Source of the DNA: Candidatus Nitrospira allomarina
GTDB lineage: Bacteria; Nitrospirota; Nitrospiria; Nitrospirales; UBA8639
DNA: 64,000 bases
Assembly (NCBI RefSeq): GCF_032050975.1
Contig: NZ_CP116967.1
Span: 3,965,001-4,029,000 of the forward strand
Direction: 5' to 3'
Shown: piece after piece, positions 2,538 through 57,220 of the stretch
Layout: each line of letters opens with the position of its first letter
Numbering within the stretch: the stretch's first letter is position 1
Program-made: the position numbers and the translations under genes
The notes under the pieces: generated by a model
The model's database searches: none
The model's input: only the letters and a program-made list of their open reading frames with translations
What the model was told of the DNA's origin: nothing

Positions 2538-2984
2538 TCACACCCTTTCCGGTGCCGATTCATTTAAAATGAGCCAATAAAGCCCAAGGTTTTGAACCGC
2601 TTGAGAAAACTCTTGAAAGTCCACTGGCTTGCGAACATAACTATTGGCTCCAAGTTGATAGCTTTTCACAATGTCCTGTTCTTCCTTGGACGACGTGAGC
2701 ACAACCACCGGGAGATACTTCGTCCGTTCATCAGCTCGTAACCGTCGAAGCACTTCCAGCCCATCAATTTTGGGGAGCTTGAGGTCCAACAAGATAATTT
2801 GAGGCATCTGGCTTAAATCACGACCGGCATGCGCTCCGGTTCCAAATAAATATTCCAACGCTTCCACGCCATCCCGGGCCACCACAACTTCATTTTTTAT
2901 GTTGTTTTTCTTGAGGGCCCGCATCGTCAACTCTTCATCATCAGGATGATCTTCCACTAACAGAATGACTTTGTTGGTCATCAT
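2538..2984 (-). CDS. Response regulator, Rcp1-like single receiver
   Basis: A 148-residue protein consisting of one CheY-like receiver domain. It has the acidic pair at the start (VEDHPDDEE), the phospho-acceptor Asp in [12 protein letters not shown], the T/S of VVVLTSS and the conserved Lys in VRKPVD. The inserted loop between strands 2 and 3 ([15 protein letters not shown]) is typical of Rcp1-type regulators that pair with phytochrome-like kinases. The start at 2984 is set by GGAGGAGGAG just upstream; the next codon is also ATG. The histidine kinase gene ends only 20 bases upstream on the same strand, so the two are very likely co-transcribed partners. With no output domain it probably acts by protein interaction or as a phosphorelay intermediate. 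Confidence 0.85.
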
Positions 2985-3004
2985 CTTCTCCTCCTCCGGT
3001 TGCC

Positions 3005-4747
3005 TTACAACGTAAAATGAAAAGTTGCCCCTTTGCCCACCACTCCTTCTGCCCAAATTTGACCGCCATGCCGTTGAATAATACGATGCACTGTGGCCAG
3101 CCCAACGCCCACTCCAGGAAATTCTGTATAGGCATGAAGCCGTTGGAAGGCGCCAAAGAGTTTATGCGCATAGGTCATATCAAAACCCGCCCCATTGTCG
3201 GAAACAAAGTAGGCTGCCTGCCCTTTGTATTGGCCATAACCGAATTCGATACGGGGATGGGCTTGTTGCTGGGTAAATTTCCACGCGTTGCCGATCAAAT
3301 TTTCTAAAACGGCCCGAAGCAATTGCGGGTCAGCGGTGGCGAATACATTATTGGCCACAATACATTCGACCTGCCGGTCCGGTTCCATTTTTTGAAAATC
3401 TTCAAGAACAGCCAGGGCTACAGCACTCAGATCAAAGGTTTGGGTATGGATTTCGGCTCGGGTCAACCGGGCCAGATTGAGCATGGCATCGATAAGCTTG
3501 GACATCCGTTGACTGGCCGTCCGCACCCTCCGCAAATAATTTCGTCCTAACTCATCAAGTTTTTCATCATAATCTTCCAATACAGCCTGGCTAAACCCAT
3601 CGATCCCCCGCAACGGCGCGCGTAAATCATGGGAGACCGAATAACTAAACGCCTCAAGCTCCTTATTACTCGCCTCGAGTTGGGCCGAGCGCTGGACCAA
3701 CTGGGAATTGAGTTTGCGTATGTCCTCCTCAGCCCGCTTCCGCTCCGCCACTTCCCGAATGAGTTCGGCATTTGAGGCAGCCAACTTCCCCGTTCGCTCC
3801 TGGACTCGCTTTTCCAGATTATCTTTCGCCTTCCGAAGGGTATCTTCGGCCAATAATCGATCATGAATTTCCAATTCCAAATGTTTGTTGGCACTTTGCA
3901 GTGCGCCGGTTCGATCGCGAACCTGCTCTTCCAATTCACTTGCCACCCGGCCAAGCTTTAACACCACTAATCCGAATCCGCCCATCCAAATGACGACCAA
4001 CATCCCCATCAACCCATAAGTCCCTTGCCAACTCATACCCATGATCGTCTCCAGCGAATCAACGGGATACACGACCTCCAACAAGCCGCCCACTTGCCCG
4101 ATCTGCCAATCACGCTTTGGACTGTCAGGATGACTGTTATGACACTCCACGCATTCCTTCTGCATCCAATCGGCCTTCACAAAACGGAGGGATTCACGCC
4201 CCTCGACCTGCTCAAACCGATAAAATGGCTCATCCGTATCAGGATGTTGCGTGAAAAATTCCCACGCCTCTTCCTGAAAGCCATCAATGAGTCCTCCTGA
4301 CTTCTTTTCAGGGTAAAACGGATAGGGGCTTAGTAATGCCAATCGTTCGCCTCTTCGCCCGGCAACCAATCGCTTACCAAGGTCCCGACTGAGTGTCACA
4401 GGGAGAGGAATTTCGCCTTGATGGTCCCGATACTCTGTCGAGGCTTCAATTCCCTGGGCATGAAGGCGTCGAACAATCTCGACGGTGTACCATATCCGCA
4501 TCTCCTTCAGCGCTCTGGTATAGATCTCGGATCCTCGAAAGGCCATGGCTGTTACCATTTGGGTTTTCAATTGGGAAATGTGCAGATAAATCACGATGAG
4601 ACAAAGCCCAAAAAGCACGGTTAACACCAAAATCGTATGCCGATGTAGAAGCTCCATGGCTCCCAGAATTCTGTTCAGACAGGTTCGCCATAGTCCCGAA
4701 CCTGACAACGGCAATTTTTTACGAAGCGTCAACTCAGATACCGACAA
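3005..4747 (-). CDS. Membrane histidine kinase with haem-type CxxCH sensor domain
   Basis: A 580-residue sensor kinase. In order: transmembrane helix about 38-55; a periplasmic domain about 60-240 resembling DUF3365 (Tll0287-like) with C199-V-E-C202-H203, a c-type haem attachment motif; second helix about 243-264; a long coiled coil about 270-365; HisKA with the phospho-acceptor H373 in [10 protein letters not shown]; and a HATPase_c domain ([26 protein letters not shown]). The C-terminal half is of the phytochrome/Rcp1-partner type. Covalent haem suggests redox or gas sensing; that is inference from the motif. The start is TTG at 4747 with AGGA 7-8 bases upstream; an ATG at 4657 would give a shorter N terminus. 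It is followed 20 bases later by its likely partner regulator. Confidence 0.85.
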
Positions 4748-5110: not shown

Positions 5111-7435
5111 TCACACTGGAGCTTGATTTTGTAAGGCGACAGCCATCAAACTTTCTTCCGGCTCTGCTATCTTTTCAGAATCCATATCATCCGCCAGTGT
5201 GGGTTCCAGCTCCTGATCCTCGTCATACGTTTGCCGAACATCCAGAATTTCAATGTCTAATTGAGCTTCAGGGTACAATCGTCGCAAGTCCCATTCCGTA
5301 ATCCATCCACGTACATACTCACGCATCCGGGTACTGGATAATTTTTCTACAGCAGAAACGGGTGGCGGTGTCCAACTATACGCCGATCCATGCAGGGACC
5401 GAAGCCGCTCATATAAGGCATCCACCATTGATTCATAGGGACGAATTAATGGTTCCCCCTCCTGTTCGATAAGCCGGATACCCTGGATCGCCTGTAATGC
5501 TTGCATATGAGTTTCATCCGTCGATTCCTCCTGACACATCTGCTCGATTTTCTGGGAATCCTGTTTTTCTTCCAAGATCACGCTTTGGAAATCATCAGTC
5601 AGAGCGACAATGGCCCCAATAGCCGGACAGGTATCCTCGGCTAATACCCCCATCCACCGTGCCACCTCCTTATAGGACTTGGTCCGTTGTTTAAAAGAAT
5701 ATCGTCCGATGATTTCCGCCTCATCAATAAGCAAGATCCACCCTTTATAGCCAGCCGCCACCATCAAGCGTGAGACAAATCGAAACCGTTGTAAGGCCAA
5801 ATTCTGACTGGAAATTTTATTGAACACATAGGGGTTTTCCGGTGGACACCCCTGAAGATATTTATTGAGTTGGCTATTACTCAACGGGTCTCCCGCCCAA
5901 TACCGGATCATGCGATGACTCAGTTCAGGATCATTAATCATCCGCTCATAGAGATACAGGCTGGCAGCAAACCGGGAATCGCATCCTTGGTCCTTCCGAT
6001 GCACCCAATCAAACAAATCGGCAAAGTGCGGGCTTTGGAAATTCAGTTCACCGGCTATTTCGGTGAGAGCATCACCATGTTTACCGGGAACAATGGCATT
6101 GTTGATGGCTGCACGAAAGAGGGGTACACCATTATACAAGGGTGTCTCCTTACTGATCACAATAGGACTGCAGACAAAATTCTTCTCTAGCGCCATCTGT
6201 TGCAACGCATGAAGAAGATGGGACTTCCCACTCCCAAACCCTCCTTCAATGACGATACCCTTGGTAGGCGAGTCATGAGGAACGTTCGCCTCCATCTGTT
6301 GAAGCAGCCGTCTGAATTTTCCTTCCAGGTCCGTTTGGTGACTTCCCAGTACCTGCACCACATCACGGTTCGGCACTCCGGATCGCAACGCCTCCATGGC
6401 GCGTTGATGTCCAACATCACCATTGGCCATCGCCGGCCGATCAGTGTATTCCTTCTTTCCGGAATCGTGGGCATCTCCGGCCTGTTGAGATCCAAGACGA
6501 ATCAAAGCCCCTAGCGGGTTTTGGTATTGGCGGTCACGGACTTCGTCCCAAATACGTAATTTTAATGCCTCATACCGGTTGAGTCCTCTCCGCTCATCTG
6601 TCAAAAATTCTTGCGGTACCTGGACCACCAACAAGAAACTTTCCAATTCATCTGTCCCATCAATAAACTGACGAAGCATTTCGTAGGCATCTAACGTCGT
6701 TGAAACGCCATAATACAAGCCTTCAGGAGAATCGGGCTTCTTATTGAGCAAACATCGACTTAAGTCCAGGGACACGACTAACCCTGTTTTCCCAACTAAG
6801 CGTAACCAACGGCATAACGAAACAAACATATACCGGGCATTGGTCCGATTAATTTTCTGAAAGATAAGGGCTTCTTTGAGAGCCGAAATCTGACGAATCT
6901 CTCCACCCAGCCATGCCTTGACCGGTTCGGTCATAAAGGGAGCTTCTGAGCCAGAGTCCAATTGCCCCAAACACAATCGGATCATGGCCATACGAAATTC
7001 CTGGCACATCTGCGTATCTCGATAGATGGCCCGCTCTAACCAACTATTTAAATCTCGTCGCAGTAACGGTTCCGCCCGTTCATTCATCCTGGCGACTCCA
7101 GACATGCAGAACTCTTCCTTGTTGTCCGGGATCTGGTACCCATTTTCTTGAAGGAGTCGACGAACAAACTGTGAGGCCAGATCATCCCATGGGATGCGAC
7201 AAGCAATTTGATGGAAAAACTTATCCATCATATGAATTTTGGTGTCTTTGGCATCAACTGAGATGCACGCATAACCCTCCTGCTGAGCCAAGGTAGCCAG
7301 GTGGTTTTGGATGTCGACTCGATCCGAGTCAGAATCGGTTACCACGAACTTGACCGATGAGCCTCCTTGCCCAATAAATCGTTGAAGGTATTCTTGGCGA
7401 AGCGTATGAAACCATTCTTGAGGTCGTAACTCCAT
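5111..7435 (-). CDS. BrxC/BrxD-like (DUF2791-type) tandem P-loop ATPase, paralog 1
   Basis: A 774-residue predicted AAA-like ATPase. The C-terminal module (about 340-630) has the marks of the BrxC/BrxD (DUF2791) family: EALRSGVPNRDV lead-in, Walker A GGFGSGKS at 398-405, VISKETPLY, and Walker B with D571-E572 in WILLIDEAEIIGRYS. The N-terminal module (about 6-310) repeats the layout without Walker A. GGSSVKFVV (24-32) sits where a P-loop would be, LVVSLDL (D224) sits at the Walker B position, and LRQFIDGTDELE..FLLVV..PQEFL matches the sensor strand region of BrxD-like proteins. A conserved SSTRMREYVRGWITEWDL block and an acidic tail end the protein. The start ATG has GAAGGA 8 bases upstream. 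It lies 180 bases downstream of paralog 2. The cellular role is unknown; a DNA-related or defence function is inference from the family. Confidence 0.75.
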   Translation of the reverse strand: MELRPQEWFHTLRQEYLQRFIGQGGSSVKFVVTDSDSDRVDIQNHLATLAQQEGYACISVDAKDTKIHMMDKFFHQIACRIPWDDLASQFVRRLLQENGYQIPDNKEEFCMSGVARMNERAEPLLRRDLNSWLERAIYRDTQMCQEFRMAMIRLCLGQLDSGSEAPFMTEPVKAWLGGEIRQISALKEALIFQKINRTNARYMFVSLCRWLRLVGKTGLVVSLDLSRCLLNKKPDSPEGLYYGVSTTLDAYEMLRQFIDGTDELESFLLVVQVPQEFLTDERRGLNRYEALKLRIWDEVRDRQYQNPLGALIRLGSQQAGDAHDSGKKEYTDRPAMANGDVGHQRAMEALRSGVPNRDVVQVLGSHQTDLEGKFRRLLQQMEANVPHDSPTKGIVIEGGFGSGKSHLLHALQQMALEKNFVCSPIVISKETPLYNGVPLFRAAINNAIVPGKHGDALTEIAGELNFQSPHFADLFDWVHRKDQGCDSRFAASLYLYERMINDPELSHRMIRYWAGDPLSNSQLNKYLQGCPPENPYVFNKISSQNLALQRFRFVSRLMVAAGYKGWILLIDEAEIIGRYSFKQRTKSYKEVARWMGVLAEDTCPAIGAIVALTDDFQSVILEEKQDSQKIEQMCQEESTDETHMQALQAIQGIRLIEQEGEPLIRPYESMVDALYERLRSLHGSAYSWTPPPVSAVEKLSSTRMREYVRGWITEWDLRRLYPEAQLDIEILDVRQTYDEDQELEPTLADDMDSEKIAEPEESLMAVALQNQAPV

Positions 7436-7615
7436 TGCTCGTATCCTTCACAGGTTAGAAAGTCACATTCATACACAGAAAGGTTTTACAGACTACCGAA
7501 AAGGCAGAGACCTATGCTGAAAAAAAATGTTGCCCCGTCTTTGAAAGATTCATTCGAATCTGGCGGTTATATTGTGCAAATTTTCTGATGACAGCCATTT
7601 TGGTCAAGACATAAA

Positions 7616-9892
7616 CTAGTTCGACTCGGAGAGTGCCGGGTGAAGCAGGTCTTCCTCATCCCCTTCTAATTCAGAATCTTCCGAGTAATCTTGTCGAATT
7701 TCTGTTAATTCAATGTCGACTTTTTGTGTTGGATCAAGACGCGTCAAATCCCATTCGGTAATCCAGCCTTTGACATATTCACGCATCCGGGTGCTGGATA
7801 ACCGCTCAATCGTTGGGACCTGAGGGGGTTCCCAGCCATACGCAGCACCATGAATGGCACGAATTTTATGGTAGATTTCTTCTACAAGCTGGTCATAGGG
7901 ACCGACCAATGGTATGCGTTCGCATTCGATGAGCCGCATTCCCTGTTCTGCTTGGCGGGACAGCACCAAATCGGTTTCCGATCCTGATTCTCGCAGTTTT
8001 TCTGGCACTTTTTCCCGATCACCCTTTTCATCCAAAATCGCACTTTGAAAATCATCCGTGAGCGCCATCACGGCCGCCAATCCGGATTTATAGCCGAGAT
8101 CGGCAAAGCTGGAGGCTTCCAGTCGGCCCAGCCACCTGGCTAATTCCGCATAGGACTGGGCTCGTTGCTTAAAGGAATACCTACCAATAATTTCTGCCTC
8201 ATCGATCAGTAAAATCCAACCAGAATATCCCGCCGCAATCATCAGTCGTGAAACAAATTTAAATCGTTGCAACGCCATCTCCATGGGGGAGACTCGTTCA
8301 AATCGATAGGAAATACTCGCATCACAGGCTTTGAGTAATCGCTTGATTTCAGCATCGGTCAACGGATCCCCTGCCCAAAATCGAATGATCCGGTGACGTA
8401 ACTCCGGGTCATTCCCCATGCGTTCGTACAGAAAGACCGAGGCCGCAAAGCGCCCATCAATTTCTCCACCCTGACGATGTACCCATTCATAAAAATTCGC
8501 GTATTGGGGACTCTTAAAATTTAAATCCGCTGCCACCTCGGCCAAGACATCTCCTCGTTTTTCAGGGATATCAGCAGACTCAATGGCAGATCGAAACATC
8601 AATGCGGGACTATACAGAGGCGTTTCCTTACTTATTACGACCTTGCTACACACAAATCTGGATTCCAATGCCATACGCCTTAAGGATTCCAGCAAATGTG
8701 ATTTCCCCGTACCAAATCCTCCTTCAATCAACATGCCTTTTGTTGTCCAACCCTTATGAATGCTGGCTTGAGCGTCCTGCAACATCTGTTGGAATTTGGA
8801 TTTGACCATCGGCTGTGGACATCCCAGCGATTGAACCACTCCCGGGCTCGGGACACCTGCCCTCAAGGATTCAATAACCCGTTGATGCTGCACATCTTCT
8901 TTTCGGTTTCCCACTCTGGCCAGAAGACTGCTCTCGGCAAAGACTGCGGTCTGATTGGTCAGCCTGACCATCGGTGCAAATGGATTTTGACGGGTTTTAT
9001 CCCGGACATCGTCCCAAATTCGAAGCTTTAGGGCTTCATAGCGATTCAGACCCAACCGTTGATCCGAGAGAAAGGCTTGCGAGGTAACGATCACGACCAA
9101 TAGCCCTTCAATTTCATCGCTGCCATCAATGAATTGTCTCAGCATCTCATAGGCATCCATAACCGCAGAGGGCGAATAATTCAGGCAGGTCGCACCGGCT
9201 TCTTTGCCGCCTGTAAAGGCGGAAATATCGATGGTCAAGACCATACCGGGTTTCCCCAACAGGCGGGTCCAATGGGCTAAGGAGACTATGAGGTCACGCG
9301 CATTACTGCGGGTGACCTTTTCAAAAATCAATATTTTTTTGAGGGTAGCCATTTGTTTCAGCTCACCCCGAAGCCACGCCTTAATTGCTGCCGACTCTTT
9401 AGAGGGACTATCCGGCAATTCCAACTGAGCCAAACACAACTGGATCATGGCCAGTCGAAATTCCCGACTCATGTGAAAATCCTGAAACAAGCTCCCTTCC
9501 AACCATGCGTTCACTTCTCGGTGCATCGTGGGTTCATCGCAACCGTTGAGGGAGGCCAGAGAAGACCAACAACACTCCTCCCGCCTTTCAGGGATTTTCC
9601 ATTGATGCTCTCGAAAGAGTTTTTTGACATACTCGAACGCCCAGGCGTCCCATTCAATTTGCCTGGCCATTTCCTTAAACAAGAGATCAATCAGTTGGAC
9701 CTTCGTACAATGAGAATCCGCGTGAATCGTGACAAAGCCTTCCTCCCGTGACAGCGCCTCCACCCCCACGCTCACAGCTTTTGCGTTCTGAGCCTCCTCC
9801 ACAACCGCAAATTTGACGGCCGATCCTCCACGACGGATAAACCCCTGAAGATAGGCAGATTTGAGAACGTTCAACCATTCCTGTGGAGACAT
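7616..9892 (-). CDS. BrxC/BrxD-like (DUF2791-type) tandem P-loop ATPase, paralog 2
   Basis: A 758-residue paralog of the next gene downstream, with the same two-module plan. N-terminal module about 4-310: GGSAVKFAVV at 22-31 in place of a P-loop, and MVLTIDIS as the degenerate Walker B strand. C-terminal module: ESLRAGVPSPGV, Walker A GGFGTGKS at 391-398, VISKETPLYS, and Walker B with D564-E565 in WILLIDEAEIIGRYS. It has the same SSTRMREYVKGWITEWDL block and an acidic C terminus. By eye its N-terminal half differs more from the other two copies than they do from each other (for example NGCDEPTMHREVNAW where both others have NER.EP.LRRD-like text). The start ATG has GAGG at a fitting distance. 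It follows the unrecognised partner gene by about 80 bases, so these are probably one operon. Function unknown. Confidence 0.75.
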   Translation of the reverse strand: MSPQEWLNVLKSAYLQGFIRRGGSAVKFAVVEEAQNAKAVSVGVEALSREEGFVTIHADSHCTKVQLIDLLFKEMARQIEWDAWAFEYVKKLFREHQWKIPERREECCWSSLASLNGCDEPTMHREVNAWLEGSLFQDFHMSREFRLAMIQLCLAQLELPDSPSKESAAIKAWLRGELKQMATLKKILIFEKVTRSNARDLIVSLAHWTRLLGKPGMVLTIDISAFTGGKEAGATCLNYSPSAVMDAYEMLRQFIDGSDEIEGLLVVIVTSQAFLSDQRLGLNRYEALKLRIWDDVRDKTRQNPFAPMVRLTNQTAVFAESSLLARVGNRKEDVQHQRVIESLRAGVPSPGVVQSLGCPQPMVKSKFQQMLQDAQASIHKGWTTKGMLIEGGFGTGKSHLLESLRRMALESRFVCSKVVISKETPLYSPALMFRSAIESADIPEKRGDVLAEVAADLNFKSPQYANFYEWVHRQGGEIDGRFAASVFLYERMGNDPELRHRIIRFWAGDPLTDAEIKRLLKACDASISYRFERVSPMEMALQRFKFVSRLMIAAGYSGWILLIDEAEIIGRYSFKQRAQSYAELARWLGRLEASSFADLGYKSGLAAVMALTDDFQSAILDEKGDREKVPEKLRESGSETDLVLSRQAEQGMRLIECERIPLVGPYDQLVEEIYHKIRAIHGAAYGWEPPQVPTIERLSSTRMREYVKGWITEWDLTRLDPTQKVDIELTEIRQDYSEDSELEGDEEDLLHPALSESN

Positions 9893-9972: not shown

Positions 9973-10866
9973 TTATCCCGACTGGACAAAGGAAATTCCA
10001 TAATAGGTTTTCTCCCGTCCCCCTTGCGCAATCACGGTTAACGTTTTGTTGGCGTCCCGCACGCCGGTACTCGCATGAAAGTTTGCCCGATGATTGTTTT
10101 TGGTGGAAATGGTTCCACTTTTATCCAATAAATAGACATCCCGGCCAAATTCCTGTCTGGTATATTCATTGGCCTGCCACGGAAGGAGCGTCAAGAGTTG
10201 ATACAGTTCCAAGAGTGGAATCACCGTTCCTTTGCCAATGAGGTGCTTCCCCCGACCCGCCACCACAATGGAATAGGCCGTAAAGACCATCTCCAAAAAC
10301 GTTTGCGGTTTAAATCGAAGGGGTTTATTTTGAACTTCCTTTAATCGTTTGACCAAGACCGAAGGACGAAGCCGGTTTTCCCGCATTCGATCAATGGCAA
10401 CCGCACGTTCTTTATGAAGAATTCGTAATAAGACTGGATAGGAAAATAAATAGCCATCGTGCTCATAGAGGTTGACACCCATCTGCTGGGCAGTGGTAAG
10501 AAGTTCCTGGCGAAACGCTTTGCCCTCCAAATATCCAGCCTCATCAAAATTCAGACGTTCCTGGGTTTTCACAAAATCACATCCCAGGCTCAGCGTCACC
10601 TCTTTGCCTTCCTCCAGCAATTTTCGCAGATTAACCAGATCACCCACTTTCGCTGCATCTTTAATTTTTTTAAATGACGCCATCACCTGCTTCGTGGTTT
10701 TCACTAATCCCCCGGCTTGCTCTTCAATATCAGCCAAGGCCTGCTCCAAATTGACGTTCTTCGTGACAGCCTTTGAAGGTGGGGAAGAATCCGGCAACTC
10801 AAGCACACCCGTTGCCGACCTCGACCCACAGGCTTGTAACGTATTATCAATTCCTTCGGCACTCAT
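9973..10866 (-). CDS. Unrecognised partner of the ATPase pair
   Basis: About 297 residues from the ATG at 10866, which has AGAGGA 13 bases upstream. A longer frame begins at a TTG at 11019 and there is an ATG at 10938, so the start is uncertain. I do not recognise the family. The N-terminal third is helical with coiled-coil character (NLEQALADIEEQAGGLVKTT onward) around a 'VNLRKLLEEGKEV' stretch. The middle has a distinctive SYPVLLRI...AIDRMRENRLRPSVLVKRL segment. The end is strand-rich (RANFHASTGVRD, KTYYGISFV). No signal peptide or membrane helix, so cytoplasmic. It is the first gene of the minus-strand group that continues into the two ATPases, so it is probably a functional partner, for example an adaptor or DNA-binding subunit; that is inference from position only. 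Confidence 0.6.
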   Translation of the reverse strand: MSAEGIDNTLQACGSRSATGVLELPDSSPPSKAVTKNVNLEQALADIEEQAGGLVKTTKQVMASFKKIKDAAKVGDLVNLRKLLEEGKEVTLSLGCDFVKTQERLNFDEAGYLEGKAFRQELLTTAQQMGVNLYEHDGYLFSYPVLLRILHKERAVAIDRMRENRLRPSVLVKRLKEVQNKPLRFKPQTFLEMVFTAYSIVVAGRGKHLIGKGTVIPLLELYQLLTLLPWQANEYTRQEFGRDVYLLDKSGTISTKNNHRANFHASTGVRDANKTLTVIAQGGREKTYYGISFVQSG

Positions 10867-10989
10867 GTCGGTTATCGAGTCCTCTGGTTTGTGGTGAATT
10901 CGGGCAATCGGCTTTAAAGAACCGATTGATCGGCGCATACCTGTTTCATTCGGCACATCCCTGATAATTCTTAATATTTTCGGGCTTCT

Positions 10990-11003
10990 TTCATGATCAT
11001 GAA
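10990..11003. promoter_or_regulatory. 14-bp perfect palindrome in divergent region
   Basis: TTCATGATCATGAA reads the same on both strands. If the partner gene starts at 10866, this site lies in the gap between it and the divergent SDR gene at 11113, a typical place for an operator shared by two promoters. If the partner gene starts at 11019 it would be coding. No promoter boxes are clear beside it, so the operator role is a guess. Confidence 0.3.
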
Positions 11004-11112
11004 TTATTAAATTCCACAACTTCTTGCTCGTGCTCAGCGCTTCTTGGTCAACCCGCAGTTGACCCGTAGGAAGAAAGCCTTTTATGGTTGAACGTTTCGT
11101 CAGACCCTATTC

Positions 11113-38196: not shown

Positions 38197-38601
38197 TTAT
38201 GAAAATGGGACAGGAACGGGAGAAGAACTAGCGTAACCTACCAGAGCCCTTTGCACGGTTTGGAGAAGCTCATCAACAGTAAAGGGTTTTTGCAGGGTGC
38301 AGATCGGCTGGAATATTTGATGAGGGCCCTTCATCGGTCCACCAGATCTAGGAATATTTCCCGTCAGAGTGATCATCGGAATGCTAGAAGATTGTTTATT
38401 AACGGGTGGAGTGAATTCGGCTTCTCTCTCTTCCATCGCCAACACATCCATAATAATCAAGGACGCTTGGAAATTTTCATGATTTTGAAGCCCCTCCTGG
38501 CAGGACTTTGCGGCCATAACCATATACCCGGCTGTTTCCAAAGAAAGAGAAACGGACTCCCTCACCTGGATATCATTGTCTATCACCAAAATCCTATTCA
38601 T
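38197..38601 (-). CDS. Single-domain response regulator
   Basis: A 134-residue receiver-like protein. It has IDND near the start, the likely phospho-acceptor Asp in LIIMDVLAMEE, the Thr in MITLTGN and the Lys in LQKPFTVDEL. The segment after the phospho-acceptor is unusual: it lacks the normal 'MP..dG' and has a Glu-rich insertion (EEREAEFTPP), so the active-site surface may be altered. It carries no output domain. The kinase partner is not adjacent. Confidence 0.7.
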   Translation of the reverse strand: MNRILVIDNDIQVRESVSLSLETAGYMVMAAKSCQEGLQNHENFQASLIIMDVLAMEEREAEFTPPVNKQSSSIPMITLTGNIPRSGGPMKGPHQIFQPICTLQKPFTVDELLQTVQRALVGYASSSPVPVPFS

Positions 38602-38900
38602 GTGTTAACCAAAAGTTATTCACCAATAAAAATGCTGGTCGCTAGTGAAAAAGGCCCAATTTCTTCGCAAATTAAAAAAGCAATTTATGTTCCTTCCCAT
38701 TTAAAATCGTCTGTCAAAGAAATTTTCCCTTAAAAATCAAAACGTTACGTCCATTATCTCAAAAATGGTTAAGTGACCGACATGAAGGAGGAAACATGCA
38801 ATATGCAGGGATCATCATTCACCATTTTCCATAATCCCTAATGCACCTTACAAACCACCGGACTGGTCCTGGAGCAATCCGAACAACCCACGAACAATCC
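38602..38900. other. Intergenic, AT-rich, no gene seen
   Basis: About 300 bases between two minus-strand genes. A plus-strand frame crosses it from 38251 but is antisense to the receiver gene and has no start signal. It may hold the promoter of the receiver gene; no clear boxes were picked out. Confidence 0.35.
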
Positions 38901-40232
38901 TTAAAATTTGTGTAAGGGGACATCCAACCTGCGACTGTTTCTCCATAGCCAGAATAGTTGAAATCCTAAGCCGCTAAGCATCGCGGCCAAGCCCACATAT
39001 AATCCGGTCACTTCTCCATAAAGTACTCCCGCCAATAAAAAGATGGAACTTCCAAACAGATACAAACACACGGCTTGAGTAATAACAGAAGTCTTCCCAC
39101 GATGAACAAACTGGCCTTGAAAAAAACTCTCCCATGGACTCAAAGCGGGAAAAATTACCATGAGCCAGAGCGCTGTGGAGGCCAACACGGTCAGTTCAGG
39201 AGTCAGAGCCGCGCCCCATTCAAACCAGAGAGTGGAGAGAGGAGTGGCAGCAATCAGAAAAAGGATTCCGCTCGTACAGATTGAAACCATTGTCACAAAT
39301 TTCTTCAAAGGGCCGAGAAAATGCGGTCGGTCATACAGAGCGACAACCACCTCCTGCATCGCTAATCCTCCACTCCGAAACACAAATGAGAGGCCACCTA
39401 ACACCGGCCAGACAGCCAAGGACTCTATAGCGTTTGGCATCCGACTGATGGCCGCACTGACAATCGGTAAATTCCCAAGGGAAATGAGTGGAGTAAATGC
39501 AAGAGGCCAATAAAACACCCGTAATTGATTCAGTGTGAGAGGCGATGGATGCACAGGACTCATTTGAAGATTGGTGAGGATCGGACGCACGAAAAACAGA
39601 ATAAAGCCAGCCTCGACCATTGCCCCAGAAGACATCGCGACCGTTGCCACAACAATCCCCGGGAAACTCTGTAGAACTATTCCGCAAAATAAGACCGAAC
39701 TGCTTACAAATAAACGGACCAAGGTTCCAAGCCCAATCAGGCGCGTCTGTCCTGCCCGAATCACCACTCCCTGAAAAAACCTTCTCACCGCAATCGAGAG
39801 CGTCCATGGCGTCATGCATTGAAGACCGATTCTGGCCGGTTCCACAATAATATCTGGAACACCTAACACGTCTTGTACGATCATCCCGTACACCGGCGTA
39901 AAAGCCACGACGACATGAACGACGGTTAGAAGACTTCCCAAGACCACAATGAAATTTCGAATAAGCCGGTAGGCCAACCAATCCTTACATAAGGCGGTAG
40001 AGGCAACCAGAATCATTATGACGGGTGCCTCGATCAATAATGAGAGAGGAAAAACCACCCCACCATAGGCGGCTAAATGGACCTCAGGATCGGCCAAGCG
40101 GGAAACCGTGGCTGTGATCAGTGGAAACTCCAGACCCATGAGCATCCAACTCGCGGCCAAGGGCCACCACATGCGGAAAATCGTGAGGAACGGAGAAGGA
40201 GGGGCAGGTAGGGCCTGCGTGTTAGCAGTCAC
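38901..40232 (-). CDS. MOP-superfamily multi-helix transporter (ANKH/MATE-like)
   Basis: A 443-residue integral membrane protein with about 12 hydrophobic segments. The opening MWWPLAASWMLMGLEFPLIT and the SRLADPEVHLAAYGG loop resemble prokaryotic homologues of the progressive ankylosis protein within the MOP (MATE/flippase) superfamily. The twofold arrangement FWPLAF...PIVSAAISRM in the second half repeats the first. The substrate is unknown; export of small anions or lipids would be typical of the superfamily. It lies downstream of the third BrxC/BrxD-like ATPase gene on the same strand, separated by a hairpin, so they are probably separate units. Confidence 0.65.
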   Translation of the reverse strand: MTANTQALPAPPSPFLTIFRMWWPLAASWMLMGLEFPLITATVSRLADPEVHLAAYGGVVFPLSLLIEAPVIMILVASTALCKDWLAYRLIRNFIVVLGSLLTVVHVVVAFTPVYGMIVQDVLGVPDIIVEPARIGLQCMTPWTLSIAVRRFFQGVVIRAGQTRLIGLGTLVRLFVSSSVLFCGIVLQSFPGIVVATVAMSSGAMVEAGFILFFVRPILTNLQMSPVHPSPLTLNQLRVFYWPLAFTPLISLGNLPIVSAAISRMPNAIESLAVWPVLGGLSFVFRSGGLAMQEVVVALYDRPHFLGPLKKFVTMVSICTSGILFLIAATPLSTLWFEWGAALTPELTVLASTALWLMVIFPALSPWESFFQGQFVHRGKTSVITQAVCLYLFGSSIFLLAGVLYGEVTGLYVGLAAMLSGLGFQLFWLWRNSRRLDVPLHKF

Positions 40233-40375
40233 GAAACGACAAGCGGATCAAAAGGAACCCAAATGCACACTGTCCAAAATGGACAGGAAGCCTGAGAGGA
40301 GGCAAAAAGGAAAACAGGTTCATTGGCAAATGGATGCGGCTACATCATTAGGGGAAAGTAAAGTAGGGCGTCTTG

Positions 40376-40400
40376 CACGAAAGGGAACCGCCCTTTCGTG
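40376..40400. terminator. Strong hairpin after the third ATPase gene
   Basis: CACGAAAGGG at 40376-40385 pairs perfectly with CCCTTTCGTG at 40391-40400, a 10-base stem with a 5-base loop. It lies 55 bases after the ATPase stop on the minus strand. No T tract follows directly, so termination is likely but not certain. Confidence 0.5.
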
Positions 40401-40454
40401 ATGAGCCTACCTTATCATGAACGCGAGGTGTTCGCCAAAAGGTCAGAACCTGAG

Positions 40455-43040
40455 TTAGCAAGTCGTTTTAGGGCCATTCGTGAAGGAGCCAGAGGTGTGT
40501 GGAGTCCCGGGGGCAACAAATTCCTGGTTTTCAGATTTTCCCGCCATGGTCGAATCGGTTTCCACCGCAAAACGCCCCCCATGGCTTTTCTCCTGGTTAT
40601 CCCCTTTCGCGTTGGCTTCCTGCACCTCTTCCTGGTCCACACAAGACGGCTTCCATGTCGAAGCTTCTATTTCACACGCTTCCCCGGGATAGAAACGAAG
40701 TGAATCCCAATGTGTCACCCAACTTTTCACATATTTCCGCATACTGGTTCCTGGAATAATTTGGGCCGGATCATTTGCCGCATTTTCCCACATATGCCAC
40801 CCATGCCCCTTCAGATGAAGCGATCGAATCGTTTGATAGGATTCCTGAATAATATCGTTCGGTGGCTGTCCTAGGGGAATACGTTGGGTCTCCAATAAGC
40901 CCATACCTTTCTCCGCTTTGTCGGCGAGTATTCGTTCGGCTTCCGACTGCTTCGTTCGAAGTTTCTCCAACAGTTTGACCTTGTCACCTTTTTTCTCTAA
41001 GACTTCTTCCCGAAAATCATTGGTTAAGGCCAGCACAGCACCCAATCCTGGCAGAGTAGGACCGCCATCTAAATTCATGAGGCGTGCCACTTCGGCATAA
41101 GATTTCGCACGCTGGTTCACCGAATACCGGCCAATCAGTTCGGCTTCATCGATCAGCAAAATCCACCCGGCATATCCCGCGGCTTGCATCAGACGAGCAG
41201 CAAACTGAAAGCGCTGAAGCGCCAATTCTGCAGCCGATATTTTTCCAAACGCATACCGCTCTCCAAATCCGGCTTCTTGCAGGTACTTTTTTAAATCCCC
41301 GACTCCGATGGGGTCTCCCGTCCAAAATCGAGTCATCCGGTGGCCCAATTCCATATCGGAGCTCAATCGTTCATACAGCATCAACGTAGCGGCAAACCTG
41401 GCATCAATCTGACTTTCCGGATTATTCACCCACGTCACAAGATCCTTATAGCGCGGTGCCCAGACATCACATTGACCCGCAATTTCCGAAAACACTTCCC
41501 CTCGTTTGTCAGGAATCACTGCAGCTTCGATCGCAGAATAATACAAACGGACAGGATGATACAGAGGCGTTTCCTTACTGATCACAATCCTACTGCAGAT
41601 GAAATTGGCATCCAGCGCCAGGTTTTGAAGATACTCCAGGATATGCGATTTTCCACTGCCAAACGCGCCCTCGATCACCATACCACGTGGGCACGGACCC
41701 GTAGTAATATTTTGCTGTGTGGCTTCTAATAACCGCCGAAAACGTCCCTCCACCTCGGGCTGAAGACATCCAAGCGTCGTTACCACATGCCGGTTCGGAA
41801 CCCCCGCCCGAAGACCTTCAATAACACGACGGGCTTCTCCATCAGGCACCATTCTCCTCGGCGTGGCGGTGGAAGCAGTATGCTCTTCTTCAGAAACCTG
41901 CTGCTGATGATCCTGAATTCGGACCAACGAGGCCAATGGATTCTGACGGTGTTTCGGACGAACATCATCCCACACTCGCAATTTTAAAGCCTCGTACCGA
42001 TCCACACCACGGCGGGAGTCGGTCAGGAACTCCTGTGGAGCCATGACCACCATCAGCAAGCCTTCCATTTCATCAGCCGAATCAATAAATTGACGAAGCA
42101 ATTCATACAAATCTATGGTGGCTGAAGGCGAAAATGACAGAGAGCCGTCATTGGGCAAGCCATCCTTTTTCATAAGATACCGAGAGATATCGAGCGAAAG
42201 AATGAGGCCTCCCTGTCCCGTTAAACGAAGCCAGCGCGTTAAAGAAGACAGCATGTACCGTGCATTATGACGCGAAATTTTTTGATAGATCAGGGCCTTT
42301 TTAACTCCACCCACCAGTCGAAGGTCTCCACACAACCATTCTTTCACCGCTGAGGCCAAGACACGATCGGCATCGCCCGCATCCAACTGAGCCATACACA
42401 GCCGGATCATCGCCATGCGAAATTCACGGCACAGGCCCGAATCGCCTTCAATCGCTTTTTCCATCCATGTTTGAATATCCCGGCGGAGCATCGGCTCCTT
42501 CCGTTCATTCACCATTGCAACCTGCCGCAACGAGAATTCCTGTCGGTCTGAAGGAATTTGGTGCCCATGCTCTTCGAGTAACCTTTGGAGAAACCGATAA
42601 GCGAGTTCATCCCAATCTATTTGTTTGGCAATTTTCTGAAACAGTCGCTCGATCATGTGGGCTTTTGTGAATCGCGCGTCGACTTTTGCCAAGATATATC
42701 CTTCACGTTTGGCCAGTCCCTCTAATTCTTGTTGGCAGGTTTTTAATCCGTCTTCACCCGTGAACACGGCAAATTTGACTGCTCCACCCCCCTCACGAAC
42801 AAAACTCCCAAGATATTCATGGTGAAGAATTCCCAGCCATTCGCTTAGAGCCAGGTTAAATCGGGGCTCCTCCTCGGAGTGAATATTGTGCTTGGGCGAT
42901 GGTTTCATATCCGACCGATGTTGTTGCACAGATTCCGGCTTCTCTGGACAGGAGTCCGAGAGCAAAGAAAGGGAGGAGGGAAGACCTTCTTCTGTTCTCA
43001 CGGATTGTAAGCGATTTAAGGCCTCAATTAATTTGCTCAT
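40455..43040 (-). CDS. BrxC/BrxD-like (DUF2791-type) tandem P-loop ATPase, paralog 3
   Basis: An 861-residue third member of the family, about 30 kb from the other two. It has an extra N-terminal 60 residues beginning MSKLIEALNRLQ and then Ser/Pro-rich, probably disordered text. The N-terminal module (about 65-375) has GGGAVKFAVF instead of a P-loop and LILSLDISR at the Walker B strand. The C-terminal module has EGLRAGVPNRHV, Walker A GAFGSGKS at 458-465, VISKETPLYH and Walker B with D631-E632 in WILLIDEAELIGRYS. The end has SMRKYVKSWVTHWDS and a longer charged tail. By eye its N-terminal half is closer to paralog 1 than to paralog 2. The ATG has GAAGGAA upstream. It follows the DUF6499-like gene by 111 bases. 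Confidence 0.75.
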   Translation of the reverse strand: MSKLIEALNRLQSVRTEEGLPSSLSLLSDSCPEKPESVQQHRSDMKPSPKHNIHSEEEPRFNLALSEWLGILHHEYLGSFVREGGGAVKFAVFTGEDGLKTCQQELEGLAKREGYILAKVDARFTKAHMIERLFQKIAKQIDWDELAYRFLQRLLEEHGHQIPSDRQEFSLRQVAMVNERKEPMLRRDIQTWMEKAIEGDSGLCREFRMAMIRLCMAQLDAGDADRVLASAVKEWLCGDLRLVGGVKKALIYQKISRHNARYMLSSLTRWLRLTGQGGLILSLDISRYLMKKDGLPNDGSLSFSPSATIDLYELLRQFIDSADEMEGLLMVVMAPQEFLTDSRRGVDRYEALKLRVWDDVRPKHRQNPLASLVRIQDHQQQVSEEEHTASTATPRRMVPDGEARRVIEGLRAGVPNRHVVTTLGCLQPEVEGRFRRLLEATQQNITTGPCPRGMVIEGAFGSGKSHILEYLQNLALDANFICSRIVISKETPLYHPVRLYYSAIEAAVIPDKRGEVFSEIAGQCDVWAPRYKDLVTWVNNPESQIDARFAATLMLYERLSSDMELGHRMTRFWTGDPIGVGDLKKYLQEAGFGERYAFGKISAAELALQRFQFAARLMQAAGYAGWILLIDEAELIGRYSVNQRAKSYAEVARLMNLDGGPTLPGLGAVLALTNDFREEVLEKKGDKVKLLEKLRTKQSEAERILADKAEKGMGLLETQRIPLGQPPNDIIQESYQTIRSLHLKGHGWHMWENAANDPAQIIPGTSMRKYVKSWVTHWDSLRFYPGEACEIEASTWKPSCVDQEEVQEANAKGDNQEKSHGGRFAVETDSTMAGKSENQEFVAPGTPHTSGSFTNGPKTTC

Positions 43041-43151
43041 CGTACGGTTCCTTCCCCCATGTTCATTCTGAAATTTTCAGATTTCTCCCACTTCGCACCT
43101 GTTTCAATGACCATGCCCACACGCTGCCGGGCTCCCGTAACCTTGCACCTC

Positions 43152-43892
43152 TTACACAGGAAAATGCACACTGATTTGACAGGCACGTTTATACAATTGA
43201 TTGGCTCGCGCTTCGCATATGTCATCATCGTGTAAATGAAATAACGTTCGCCCGATTTCATAAAACGGCACGCCGAGATCCACGGCATCCAGCACGCGGA
43301 GATACATCGGCCATTCATCCCGACATTTTCGCCGTTCGAGATTTCGACCGACTTGATGTTTTTGCCATTCCAGAAGATCTGCCTTCACTTTTTCAATTTG
43401 CCCCGACAACGGCTTTTTCAGATCAAACACCGCCGCCATTCGCCATTCCGACAAACACAGGGTGACCTCTTCACCTCCCCCCAGCCAATCCGGTCCCTGT
43501 CCGAAATAGATCCGACCGTAATTCGAATCAAATGACAACATCCAGGGTTTGGCAATGGAGGGATTCGGAAGGCCACTGAGATGATATTTTTCTAATGAAT
43601 TCGGCATCCGGGCTTTAAATGCCGGATGATCCGGCGTAAAAACTTTTTTGCGATACCGAGTGGGATACTGAGGATCTTTGGCACAAGACAGATCAAAATC
43701 GTATGTTTGCAGATAGTGTTGTTCCCAATCCTTCCGGTAATCTGAACGACGCCGGAGAAACTCCCACCGCCAAAAGGTATCGTTTAAACTCTGGGCGCAG
43801 GGATAGGTCTCCTCACGTTGCCAGTTGGGAACGGGCCCTACTATTCGTGGATGCCGGTGTATTTCCTTGGGCGGTCGTTTACTGTTCGACAT
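43152..43892 (-). CDS. DUF6499-like protein upstream of ATPase paralog 3
   Basis: A 246-residue cytoplasmic protein. FWRWEFLRRRSDYRKDWEQ near residue 40 matches the 'a.eFLRRn..Yr.dw' opening of the DUF6499 (transcriptional-regulator-like) domain. The second half, with VTLCLSEWRMAAVFDLKKPL, a helical QIEKVKADLLEWQKHQ and YLRVLDAVDLGVPFYEIGRTLF, resembles the DUF2285-like C-terminal part common in these proteins, ending in a possible helix-turn-helix. DNA binding is inferred. It is just upstream of the third BrxC/BrxD-like ATPase on the same strand, so it is likely a partner or regulator of that gene. Confidence 0.6.
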   Translation of the reverse strand: MSNSKRPPKEIHRHPRIVGPVPNWQREETYPCAQSLNDTFWRWEFLRRRSDYRKDWEQHYLQTYDFDLSCAKDPQYPTRYRKKVFTPDHPAFKARMPNSLEKYHLSGLPNPSIAKPWMLSFDSNYGRIYFGQGPDWLGGGEEVTLCLSEWRMAAVFDLKKPLSGQIEKVKADLLEWQKHQVGRNLERRKCRDEWPMYLRVLDAVDLGVPFYEIGRTLFHLHDDDICEARANQLYKRACQISVHFPV

Positions 43893-47783: not shown

Positions 47784-48461
47784 TTAGGAGAAGGTTTTGG
47801 TATACACAAAATTCTGACGGACGGAGACTCCATCTTTGCCCACGGCAGCGGATTTTCCCTGTGGAGCTGCGCCTTTCTCTTTTGGCCCTTTCGCGCCTTC
47901 TTCATGGTTCGCGTTCGATTCAGCGAACTCAGAACCCTTCGCAGCTTTCGATTCCCCACCCTCGTCCTGACCCTTTTTCAATTGCCTGGCCCACAGGTTG
48001 GGCTGGCAAACAAGGTGAAAGTTGGGAGCAGGGACGGAATCATCAATGCGCCATAACTCAAGTTCAGCGCCATAGAATGTCACTTCATCACGGGAAACGC
48101 CATTCAGCCAATCCAAGGTTTGGCGAATCTCCGCAGAAATACTCTGGGCCACACACACCACCGTTTTCGCATCGAGGCCCGCCGCATACATAATCAGTTT
48201 ACCCAGCGCGTCGGGATCAATGCCCTCCAAATGACCCAACACAATCACGTAACTCCCGGTCTTCACATCTTTGGCGAGAACGCCTCCGGCCAAAATACTG
48301 AGAGGAATGTCACTTCCAGCCGGCTTGAGGGGGCGCTCGATCGTCTCTCCTAATATGTCTAAGATTTCCTCCTGCTGAAGCCATGAAGCAAACCCGTCGG
48401 CCTCATTTCCCCACACTTCACTCAAATTTATTTTTCGAAGCTTTCCAACCGGTTTTGCCAT
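47784..48461 (-). CDS. DUF4268-type nuclease-like protein without its catalytic residues
   Basis: A 225-residue protein. Residues 1-155 follow the N-terminal PD-(D/E)xK-like domain of DUF4268 proteins: GKLRKINLSEVWGNEADGF, LGKLIMYAAGLDAKTVV, LDWLNGVSRDEVTFYGAEL and LWRIDDSVPAPNFHLVCQPN (parts). In typical members the active site reads like SLDILAKD...VIENQLE. Here the corresponding parts read LAGGVLAKD (57-65) and YVIVLGHLE (71-79), so the Asp and the Glu/Gln are missing. The C-terminal 65 residues are a Lys/Glu/Ala/Gly-rich tail. It is probably an inactive binding protein, perhaps of nucleic acid; that is inference. The gene is intact with ATG at 48461. Confidence 0.7.
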   Translation of the reverse strand: MAKPVGKLRKINLSEVWGNEADGFASWLQQEEILDILGETIERPLKPAGSDIPLSILAGGVLAKDVKTGSYVIVLGHLEGIDPDALGKLIMYAAGLDAKTVVCVAQSISAEIRQTLDWLNGVSRDEVTFYGAELELWRIDDSVPAPNFHLVCQPNLWARQLKKGQDEGGESKAAKGSEFAESNANHEEGAKGPKEKGAAPQGKSAAVGKDGVSVRQNFVYTKTFS

Positions 48462-55705: not shown

Positions 55706-57220
55706 CTAGGATACTGAGTGACTCATTGATTTCTCATCTTGAGCTAACGCTACGACCGCTTCATCAACCGTCCACTGTTCCACCCGATTTCGCCCATTCT
55801 CTTTGGCCACATACAAGGCCTTGTCGGCTTGGGCCACCAATTCCAAATAATCAGAAGCTCCTAAGGTGGCGGCTGACACACCAAAACTCATCGTAATTTT
55901 CTGGCCGGACGTCGTGCGAATAGCGGTACTGGCAGAAAGTTCAATGGTTCCACGTAACCGTTCGGCCACCAACATGCCCTCGACGCAAGTCTGCCCAGGC
56001 AGGAGAATGCAAAATTCCTCTCCCCCATACCGGCCAATAATATCCAACGGACGCAAAGTTGTTGATAACAAATTTGCCACGATTTGAATCACTTGATCCC
56101 CCACCGCATGACCAAACCGATCGTTATACGATTTGAAATGGTCGATATCCGCCATAATACAGACCAAATCGCTCCCCTCATGGTGAGCTCTCTCCCATTG
56201 TTCTTCAAATGCCTCGAATAACGCTCTCCGGTTGCAACACCCCGTCAAGGGATCTCGGTGAGCCAATTTTTCCAGTTCGGTTTTTGACAATTCTAACTCC
56301 CGAATCGTGCCTTCCAGTACTGTCACATCATTGAAAGACACCAGAATGCCTCGCACCTGCTTGCGTTGACCCAAAATGGGAGTGCAATTGACTCGAAACT
56401 TCTTCACGGTTTTTCCCATTCTCTCCCAAACCAGGGGCACATCCAATTTCGTGCATTCTCCCTGTCGCGCCGTCTTCCAGGGGTAGAGGTTCAGCTGGTC
56501 AACAGTGTCGGGAGACGTCCATTCAAAACTATCCAGGGTTTTCCCGATCAGGTCGTGAGGAGCCACATCGACAATGAGGCTAAAGGCGCGATTGGCGAGC
56601 ACAATACGGTCCTCCCCATCCAGGAACACCACACCCTCTGCCAACACATCGAACGCGGCTTGCACTCGCATGGGCACCACTGAACTGGGATCGAGTTGCC
56701 GCAACGTTCGCTTCATATACAGAAAATAGCCCACAAACCCGTAGACCATGACCAGGGCAAGAAATCGCACCCAGGCATTATCGAAAACATGGGTCCAGGT
56801 TCCAGTATCCAGGGAAAGAAACCGGAGTTGTAATGTTCCCCAATGCTGTTCCCCGTTAAAAATAGGAATCTGAATATGATCAGCCGTAGAGTGGTCCCCT
56901 GATGGTGGCGTCCAGAGAGCATGATGGGGCCCGGCCATGGCCATAATCTCCCCACTTTCCAAGACCAAAGCCACTGACTGGATGTCCGCGTTCCGTTCAA
57001 CCAACAGATCCAATGCCTGCTGGATAGCCTGGTCATCCTCCCTCTGCGCCAGGATGGAATACTGGACGGCCATGGCTTCGCTATACTTTTGCCGGTAGGT
57101 AAAGATTTGAGCAGCTTGGTCCGGAATCAGGCCCACCATCAGGTCACTGATTAAGAGGATACTCAGGGTAAGGGATACCAGACCCAGGCTCATCCAGAAA
57201 ATGGGTGTCAGTCGTTTCAT
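55706..57220 (-). CDS. Membrane diguanylate cyclase with PAS domain, coupled to adhesin gene
   Basis: A 504-residue inner-membrane GGDEF protein. Helix 1 (about 8-29) and helix 2 (about 152-169) flank a periplasmic sensor of about 120 residues with no clear family. A PAS domain follows at about 185-300 (FDVLAEGVVFLDGEDRIVLAN), then GGDEF with DPLTGCCNRRALFEA, ADIDHFKSYNDRFGHAVGD and active site GGEEF at 399-403. The inhibitory I-site R390-P-L-D393 is five residues before it. The enzyme should make c-di-GMP in response to a periplasmic and a cytoplasmic cue. Its ATG overlaps the stop of the giant adhesin gene by four bases (ATGA), so the two are translationally coupled. Confidence 0.93.
   Translation of the reverse strand: MKRLTPIFWMSLGLVSLTLSILLISDLMVGLIPDQAAQIFTYRQKYSEAMAVQYSILAQREDDQAIQQALDLLVERNADIQSVALVLESGEIMAMAGPHHALWTPPSGDHSTADHIQIPIFNGEQHWGTLQLRFLSLDTGTWTHVFDNAWVRFLALVMVYGFVGYFLYMKRTLRQLDPSSVVPMRVQAAFDVLAEGVVFLDGEDRIVLANRAFSLIVDVAPHDLIGKTLDSFEWTSPDTVDQLNLYPWKTARQGECTKLDVPLVWERMGKTVKKFRVNCTPILGQRKQVRGILVSFNDVTVLEGTIRELELSKTELEKLAHRDPLTGCCNRRALFEAFEEQWERAHHEGSDLVCIMADIDHFKSYNDRFGHAVGDQVIQIVANLLSTTLRPLDIIGRYGGEEFCILLPGQTCVEGMLVAERLRGTIELSASTAIRTTSGQKITMSFGVSAATLGASDYLELVAQADKALYVAKENGRNRVEQWTVDEAVVALAQDEKSMSHSVS

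Follow-up and report, generated by a model that had tools for sequence, protein, structure and literature searches.

Fused ATPase genes at the locus

We analysed a 64,000-nucleotide stretch of Candidatus Nitrospira allomarina (contig NZ_CP116967.1, positions 3,965,001 to 4,029,000; hereafter the window), whose genome is a single contig of 4.55 Mb with Nitrospirales metagenome assemblies as its nearest relatives. Two reverse-strand genes, NC1 and NC2, each encode two tandem modules related to the BrxC/BrxD ATPases, and a third such gene, NC3, 47% identical to NC1, lies about 30 kb from the pair within the window. In NC1 and NC2, Walker A and Walker B motifs occur in the C-terminal half (C) only, just as the original prediction had described for these two open reading frames (ORFs) from the sequence; we refer to the first half as N and to the gene upstream of the pair as A. 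The features are as follows.

NC1, 5111..7435, minus strand: 774 amino acids (aa); fused putative pseudo-AAA+ N half (aa 1 to ~316) and predicted active AAA+ C half (aa ~336 to 745).
NC1 N half, 6446..7435, minus strand: predicted AAA+ fold without Walker A, Walker-B glutamate or lid, from AlphaFold, VIA and motif columns.
NC1 N-half motif RGLNRYEALKLRI, 6551..6589, minus strand: its R294 (codon 6554-6556) is proposed to act in trans as an arginine finger.
NC1 C-half Walker A GGFGSGKS, 6221..6244, minus strand: aa 398-405.
NC1 C-half Walker B LLIDEAE, 5714..5734, minus strand: aa 568-574.
NC1 C-half lid TRMREYV with a sensor-2-like arginine, 5312..5332, minus strand: arginine invariant in 32 of 32 C halves and in BrxD/SngB.
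NC2, 7616..9892, minus strand: 758 aa; architecture as NC1.
NC2 Walker A GGFGTGKS, 8699-8722, minus strand: aa 391-398.
NC2 Walker B LLIDEAE, 8192-8212, minus strand: aa 561-567.
NC2 proposed finger R291, 9020-9022, minus strand: assigned from motif position.
A gene, 9973..11019, minus strand: ORF of 348 aa as called; many homologues begin near residue 52-90.
NC3, third fused paralog, 40455..43040, minus strand: 861 aa, built as NC1.
NC3 motifs, minus strand: Walker A 41646-41669, Walker B 41139-41159, proposed finger R355 41976-41978.

The Pfam family PF10923 (BrxC_BrxD) matched all three proteins well above its curated cut-off of 22.2 bits, with whole-protein scores of 113.4 (NC1), 111.6 (NC2) and 108.2 bits (NC3), and it matched both halves of each, the best stretch of NC1 and NC2 lying in N (residues 21-316 and 122-313, respectively). 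Profiles built from 32 N and 32 C halves aligned to one another with an E of 1.6e-5 and a probability of 79% (hhalign); in this alignment the degenerate P-loop of N falls opposite Walker A of C, and the N segment GLVVSLD opposite the C segment ILLIDE. Each profile also found BrxD/SngB-type proteins independently (E down to 4e-13 for N and 4e-11 for C).

Modelled alone with AlphaFold, the N half (mean predicted local distance difference test score 90.5) has five core strands in P-loop order, and its top matches in VIA-align were origin recognition complex (ORC)/Cdc6 subunits (Z 10.6, ~170-185 residues aligned), with BrxC at Z 9.7. The C half matched ORC2 in VIA-align (Z 15.8), and BrxC (9zdx) was its first Foldseek match. 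Foldseek returned nothing under E 0.001 for N, so its fold was assigned from VIA-align, the order of its strands and the link between the profiles; the PDB sequence search gave no credible match to N. Because PF10923 matches both halves, their profiles align and both folds match one class, we conclude that the resemblance of the halves is homology and not chance. The same evidence supports the reading of N as an ORC/Cdc6-like P-loop-type AAA+ domain from which Walker A and the Walker-B glutamate have disappeared. The expectation that the halves are alike and that the first is of P-loop type thus held up: we looked for an unrelated N fold and for a lack of similarity between the halves, and found neither.

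Complementary motif loss in N and C

Our sample from public assemblies comprised 52 related loci. Outside the fused clade, N (~320-340 aa) and C (~420-440 aa) are separate genes, C directly following N, as seen in Bacillota, Chloroflexota, Actinomycetota, Arenicellales and some Nitrospirota. An unnamed gene, A (260-300 aa), precedes N, and C is often followed by D (unnamed, 160-195 aa) and by E, an SNF2 helicase that in locus L054 has an Mrr nuclease domain. We then aligned 32 diverse N/C pairs with ten BrxD/SngB-type proteins, pooling BrxD-labelled and SngB-labelled loci and using them solely as single-chain relatives. All 32 C and none of the 32 N had a complete Walker A, and the Walker-B glutamate was distributed identically. 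Conversely, the arginine of the motif RG..Y.AL..R, with its glycine, tyrosine and leucine context, was present in all 32 N and in no C. This motif, which recurs in the ten BrxD/SngB-type proteins (in one of them with Leu at the Tyr and Pro at the Ala position), precedes strand 5, the position assigned to the BrxD arginine finger. The sensor-2 arginine was found in 32/32 C, and N ends after strand 5, before the lid. Across all sequences, a regular expression for RG..Y.AL..R matched 69/71 N versus 0/75 C, the two N misses being a G-to-S replacement that keeps the arginine and a truncated contig.

Nine distant A-N-C loci of Bacillota and Chloroflexota proved to be intermediates, their N retaining the P-loop in 7/9, the Walker-B glutamate in 1/9 and the finger motif in 9/9, and their C retaining both Walker motifs in 9/9 but the finger motif in none. 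On the tree, the P-loop was lost from N in at least two events and the motif arginine never. Even in two loci with tandem ATPase pairs in which both P-loops are present (L111, L112), the first member carries the motif and the second lacks it. These patterns suggest that the dead half N probably supplies the catalytic arginine that the live half C has lost. N and C thus probably share a single composite ATPase site, which would account for each half having shed precisely what its partner retains.

The reading that we favour, and consider fairly probable, is that N and C are the two dissimilar subunits of an ORC/Cdc6-type heteromeric AAA+ ATPase, kin to BrxD and SngB, here fused into one chain with a single composite site completed by the N arginine. 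The original prediction had likewise suggested that the dead half may be a structural or regulatory partner of the active one. By this mechanism, N would dock against the face of C that binds ATP, inserting R294 (in NC1) at the gamma-phosphate of C-bound ATP. As C itself lacks a finger and N lacks an ATP site, C would be unable to extend into a working homo-ring and would be capped by N. ATP binding and hydrolysis at the N:C site would then switch a clamp or loader. Its probable client in the split operons is the helicase of SNF2 type (accompanied by an Mrr nuclease in the one case examined), acting in anti-invader defence with A as an adaptor or sensor. Since D and E have been lost in Nitrospirales, the switch probably serves another client there. 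The partnership is predicted to hang on a single arginine; the reason BREX-like systems retain dead AAA+ partners becomes open to a direct test by one point mutant.

In eukaryotic ORC/Cdc6 and other hetero-AAA+ machines, the ATP site and the arginine finger are split between unlike subunits. The NC fold matches ORC/Cdc6 but the sequences are unrelated at ~10% identity, and, unlike those machines, NC has only two subunits, in one chain. A precedent exists in type 1 bacteriophage exclusion (BREX), where inactive BrxB gives R182, in the role of a finger, to the BrxC ATP pocket, excludes further BrxC and alone raises BrxC ATPase activity ~4-fold (PMC13326643), a logic that fits the N:C pair. BrxB (9zll, 9zn5) and the N half are both inactive AAA+ domains without Walker A/B and without the C-terminal helical bundle, and each is the dead partner of an active ORC/Cdc6 AAA+; the trans arginine has been shown for BrxB and is proposed for N. 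However, BrxB is a different, fast-evolving iSTAND, whereas N is BrxD kin, conserved and fused to its live partner. No BrxB model of PADLOC gave a match, but BrxB is said to evolve fast (PMC12839542); BrxB was also not a named chain among the structural matches listed, which we do not count against the likeness to BrxB.

Several points weigh against the composite ATPase and its proposed defence task. The role of R294 as a finger is argued from motif position and BrxD homology, and C retains scattered lysines and arginines in the finger region, among which an unaligned finger is possible. The defence role of the split operons is suggested through guilt by association. No N relative was found among phage records or IMG/VR contigs and no close homologue of N on plasmids, where the matches were SngB-type at ~26% identity and one Aulosira tandem pair. 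Furthermore, the Nitrospirales loci are not island-like, their synteny being conserved across many genomes.

The motif might also serve a different end. N could be a degenerate AAA+ scaffold that binds DNA, a helicase or A through RG..Y.AL..R, with C a homo-oligomer taking its finger from elsewhere; N does have other invariant residues beyond the motif (W175, G178, R197, R201 and D259), and the inactive P-loop domains of PglZ and BrxB have been proposed as sensors (PMC12839542). We nonetheless consider this unlikely, as motif loss is confined to the C partners and the motif has been retained in N through at least two independent P-loop losses.

Split operons and fusion in Nitrospirales

The unnamed A-N-C(-D-SNF2) gene set was found among defence genes in several phyla, the defence-type neighbours of split loci being a DUF1156 methylase and PLD helicase (L051), BrxC (L145), Cas3 (L137) and ZacB (L054). 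Strong N matches (>320 bits) occurred in ~13/301 Chloroflexota genomes and in 3/299 genomes of the phylum of L051, all three of them already in the locus sample; about a dozen further genomes among the 299 held a more distant N (135-183 bits). In the window's own phylum, as sampled, 16/296 genomes contained a relative.

Nearly all loci of A-N-C type have A as the partner upstream of N-C, and the window A protein is 46-49% identical to the A that precedes split N and C in Bacillota. It consists of a helical N-terminal part and a conserved C-terminal domain without a named family; searches of Pfam, NCBIfam and PADLOC gave no family match, and helical and designed proteins were the only matches in the PDB sequence search. 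In one genome (G125), a TAA stop interrupts A (L075:4539-5342, the same gene as in L067), and the N-C fusion after it is intact.

The closest named relatives are BrxD, the ORC/Cdc6 AAA+ ATPase of type 2 BREX, and SngB, the Shango ATPase, which have PF10923 above cut-off and the Walker, finger and sensor-2 motif columns in common with the NC proteins. Both work beside a helicase, and split A-N-C operons likewise often carry one, of SNF2 type. In BrxD and SngB, however, all motifs lie in one chain of ~440 aa, whereas in N-C they are divided over two domains. The NCBIfam BrxD equivalog NF033438 gave scores of 98.2 and 71.8 bits, below its 350-bit threshold, and we regard the NC proteins as relatives of BrxD, not as BrxD. 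The type 2 BREX partners PglW, BrxC, PglX, PglZ and BrxHI were absent among the flanking genes scanned, which were of two-component, short-chain dehydrogenase/reductase, phosphoribosyltransferase-like, rhodanese, HD and tRNA-modification types. As for Shango, whose operon combines a TerB-domain protein, an ATPase and a DEAD/DEAH helicase, A has no TerB or SngA match, the locus has no helicase, and the NC ATPase matches SngB weakly (48-52 bits).

More tentatively than for the composite site itself, we propose that A-N-C is an undescribed anti-invader family built on a heteromeric BrxD-like ATPase, with the ATP motifs of its composite site in C and the arginine in N. The dead subunit would have decayed stepwise and in parallel lineages, and Nitrospirales may have fused and multiplied the pair for a chromosomal task without the helicase.

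Nitrospirales keep A and the N-C fusions as chromosomal genes and have lost D and E. D was not found in the window genome (G000) or in the related fused genomes searched, nor was a close E, the sole long SNF2 match there being a 1189 aa frame of 36% identity that lies elsewhere in the genome. These absences, together with an NC1 ortholog split by a frameshift within its N half (L028:8001-10315; a sequencing error or a real loss), would be expected if the fused proteins were functionless, decaying remnants of a lost defence system. That is very improbable given the three paralogs, the conserved synteny and the substitution rates. Where synonymous divergence (dS) was unsaturated, as it was not for more distant pairs, the ratio of nonsynonymous (dN) to synonymous divergence was ~0.06-0.09 for N and 0.03-0.09 for C, with dN well below dS in all three paralogs; both halves of all three are thus under purifying selection.

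In a tree of N, C and BrxD/SngB sequences, N and C formed separate deep lineages. Fused N made up one clade nested among split N (Shimodaira-Hasegawa-like approximate likelihood ratio test 99, the sole support measure used), and fused C one clade nested among split C (support 100). The fused clade is mostly Nitrospirota, and two fused loci (L031, L040) carry a Nitrospinota label. With the fused forms sitting inside the split ones in N and C alike, the tree points to a single fusion of two old neighbours that was later multiplied. The internal duplication of one gene that the original prediction proposed, leaving a pseudo-ATPase half with only a structural or regulatory role, agrees with homologous halves in tandem but is hardly credible, its part as the origin being ruled out, unless the split state arose by fission, by the occurrence of N and C as neighbouring but distinct genes in several phyla and by the nesting of fused forms within deep, separate N and C clades.

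The tandem pairs of L111 and L112 (P1/P2), considered as ancestors of N and C, sit on long branches in the trees, and the gene of ~280 aa upstream of them matches A weakly (hhalign E 0.0016, probability 16%). Such pairs of separate genes in other phyla also limit the earlier statement that members of this family carry one ATPase domain, which is correct for BrxD and SngB. Living genomes would show a series from a tandem ATPase pair through an obligate pair with divided catalysis to one fused chain. The L111 locus (L111:966-9966), on an Aulosira plasmid, carries a BrxD-like gene and a helicase, followed by a second set in which a gene of 279 aa accompanies two BrxD-like ATPases in tandem and a DEAD/DEAH helicase.

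Neighbouring genes in the window

Adjoining NC1, at 2538-4747, are a histidine kinase, whose sensor domain is Tll0287-like, and a response regulator, and genes of these sizes come after NC1 in most Nitrospirales loci. The NC3 neighbourhood (38197-43892) is conserved in many Nitrospirales, with a 246 aa protein upstream that matches PF20109 weakly and, on the downstream side, a hydrophobic protein of 443 aa; still further downstream the window has a short response-regulator-like ORF. The protein encoded at 47784-48461 (225 aa) has a match (4e-47) to PDC-S11, a candidate defence family in PADLOC, and 57217-63897 encodes a giant protein of 2226 aa with cadherin-like repeats.
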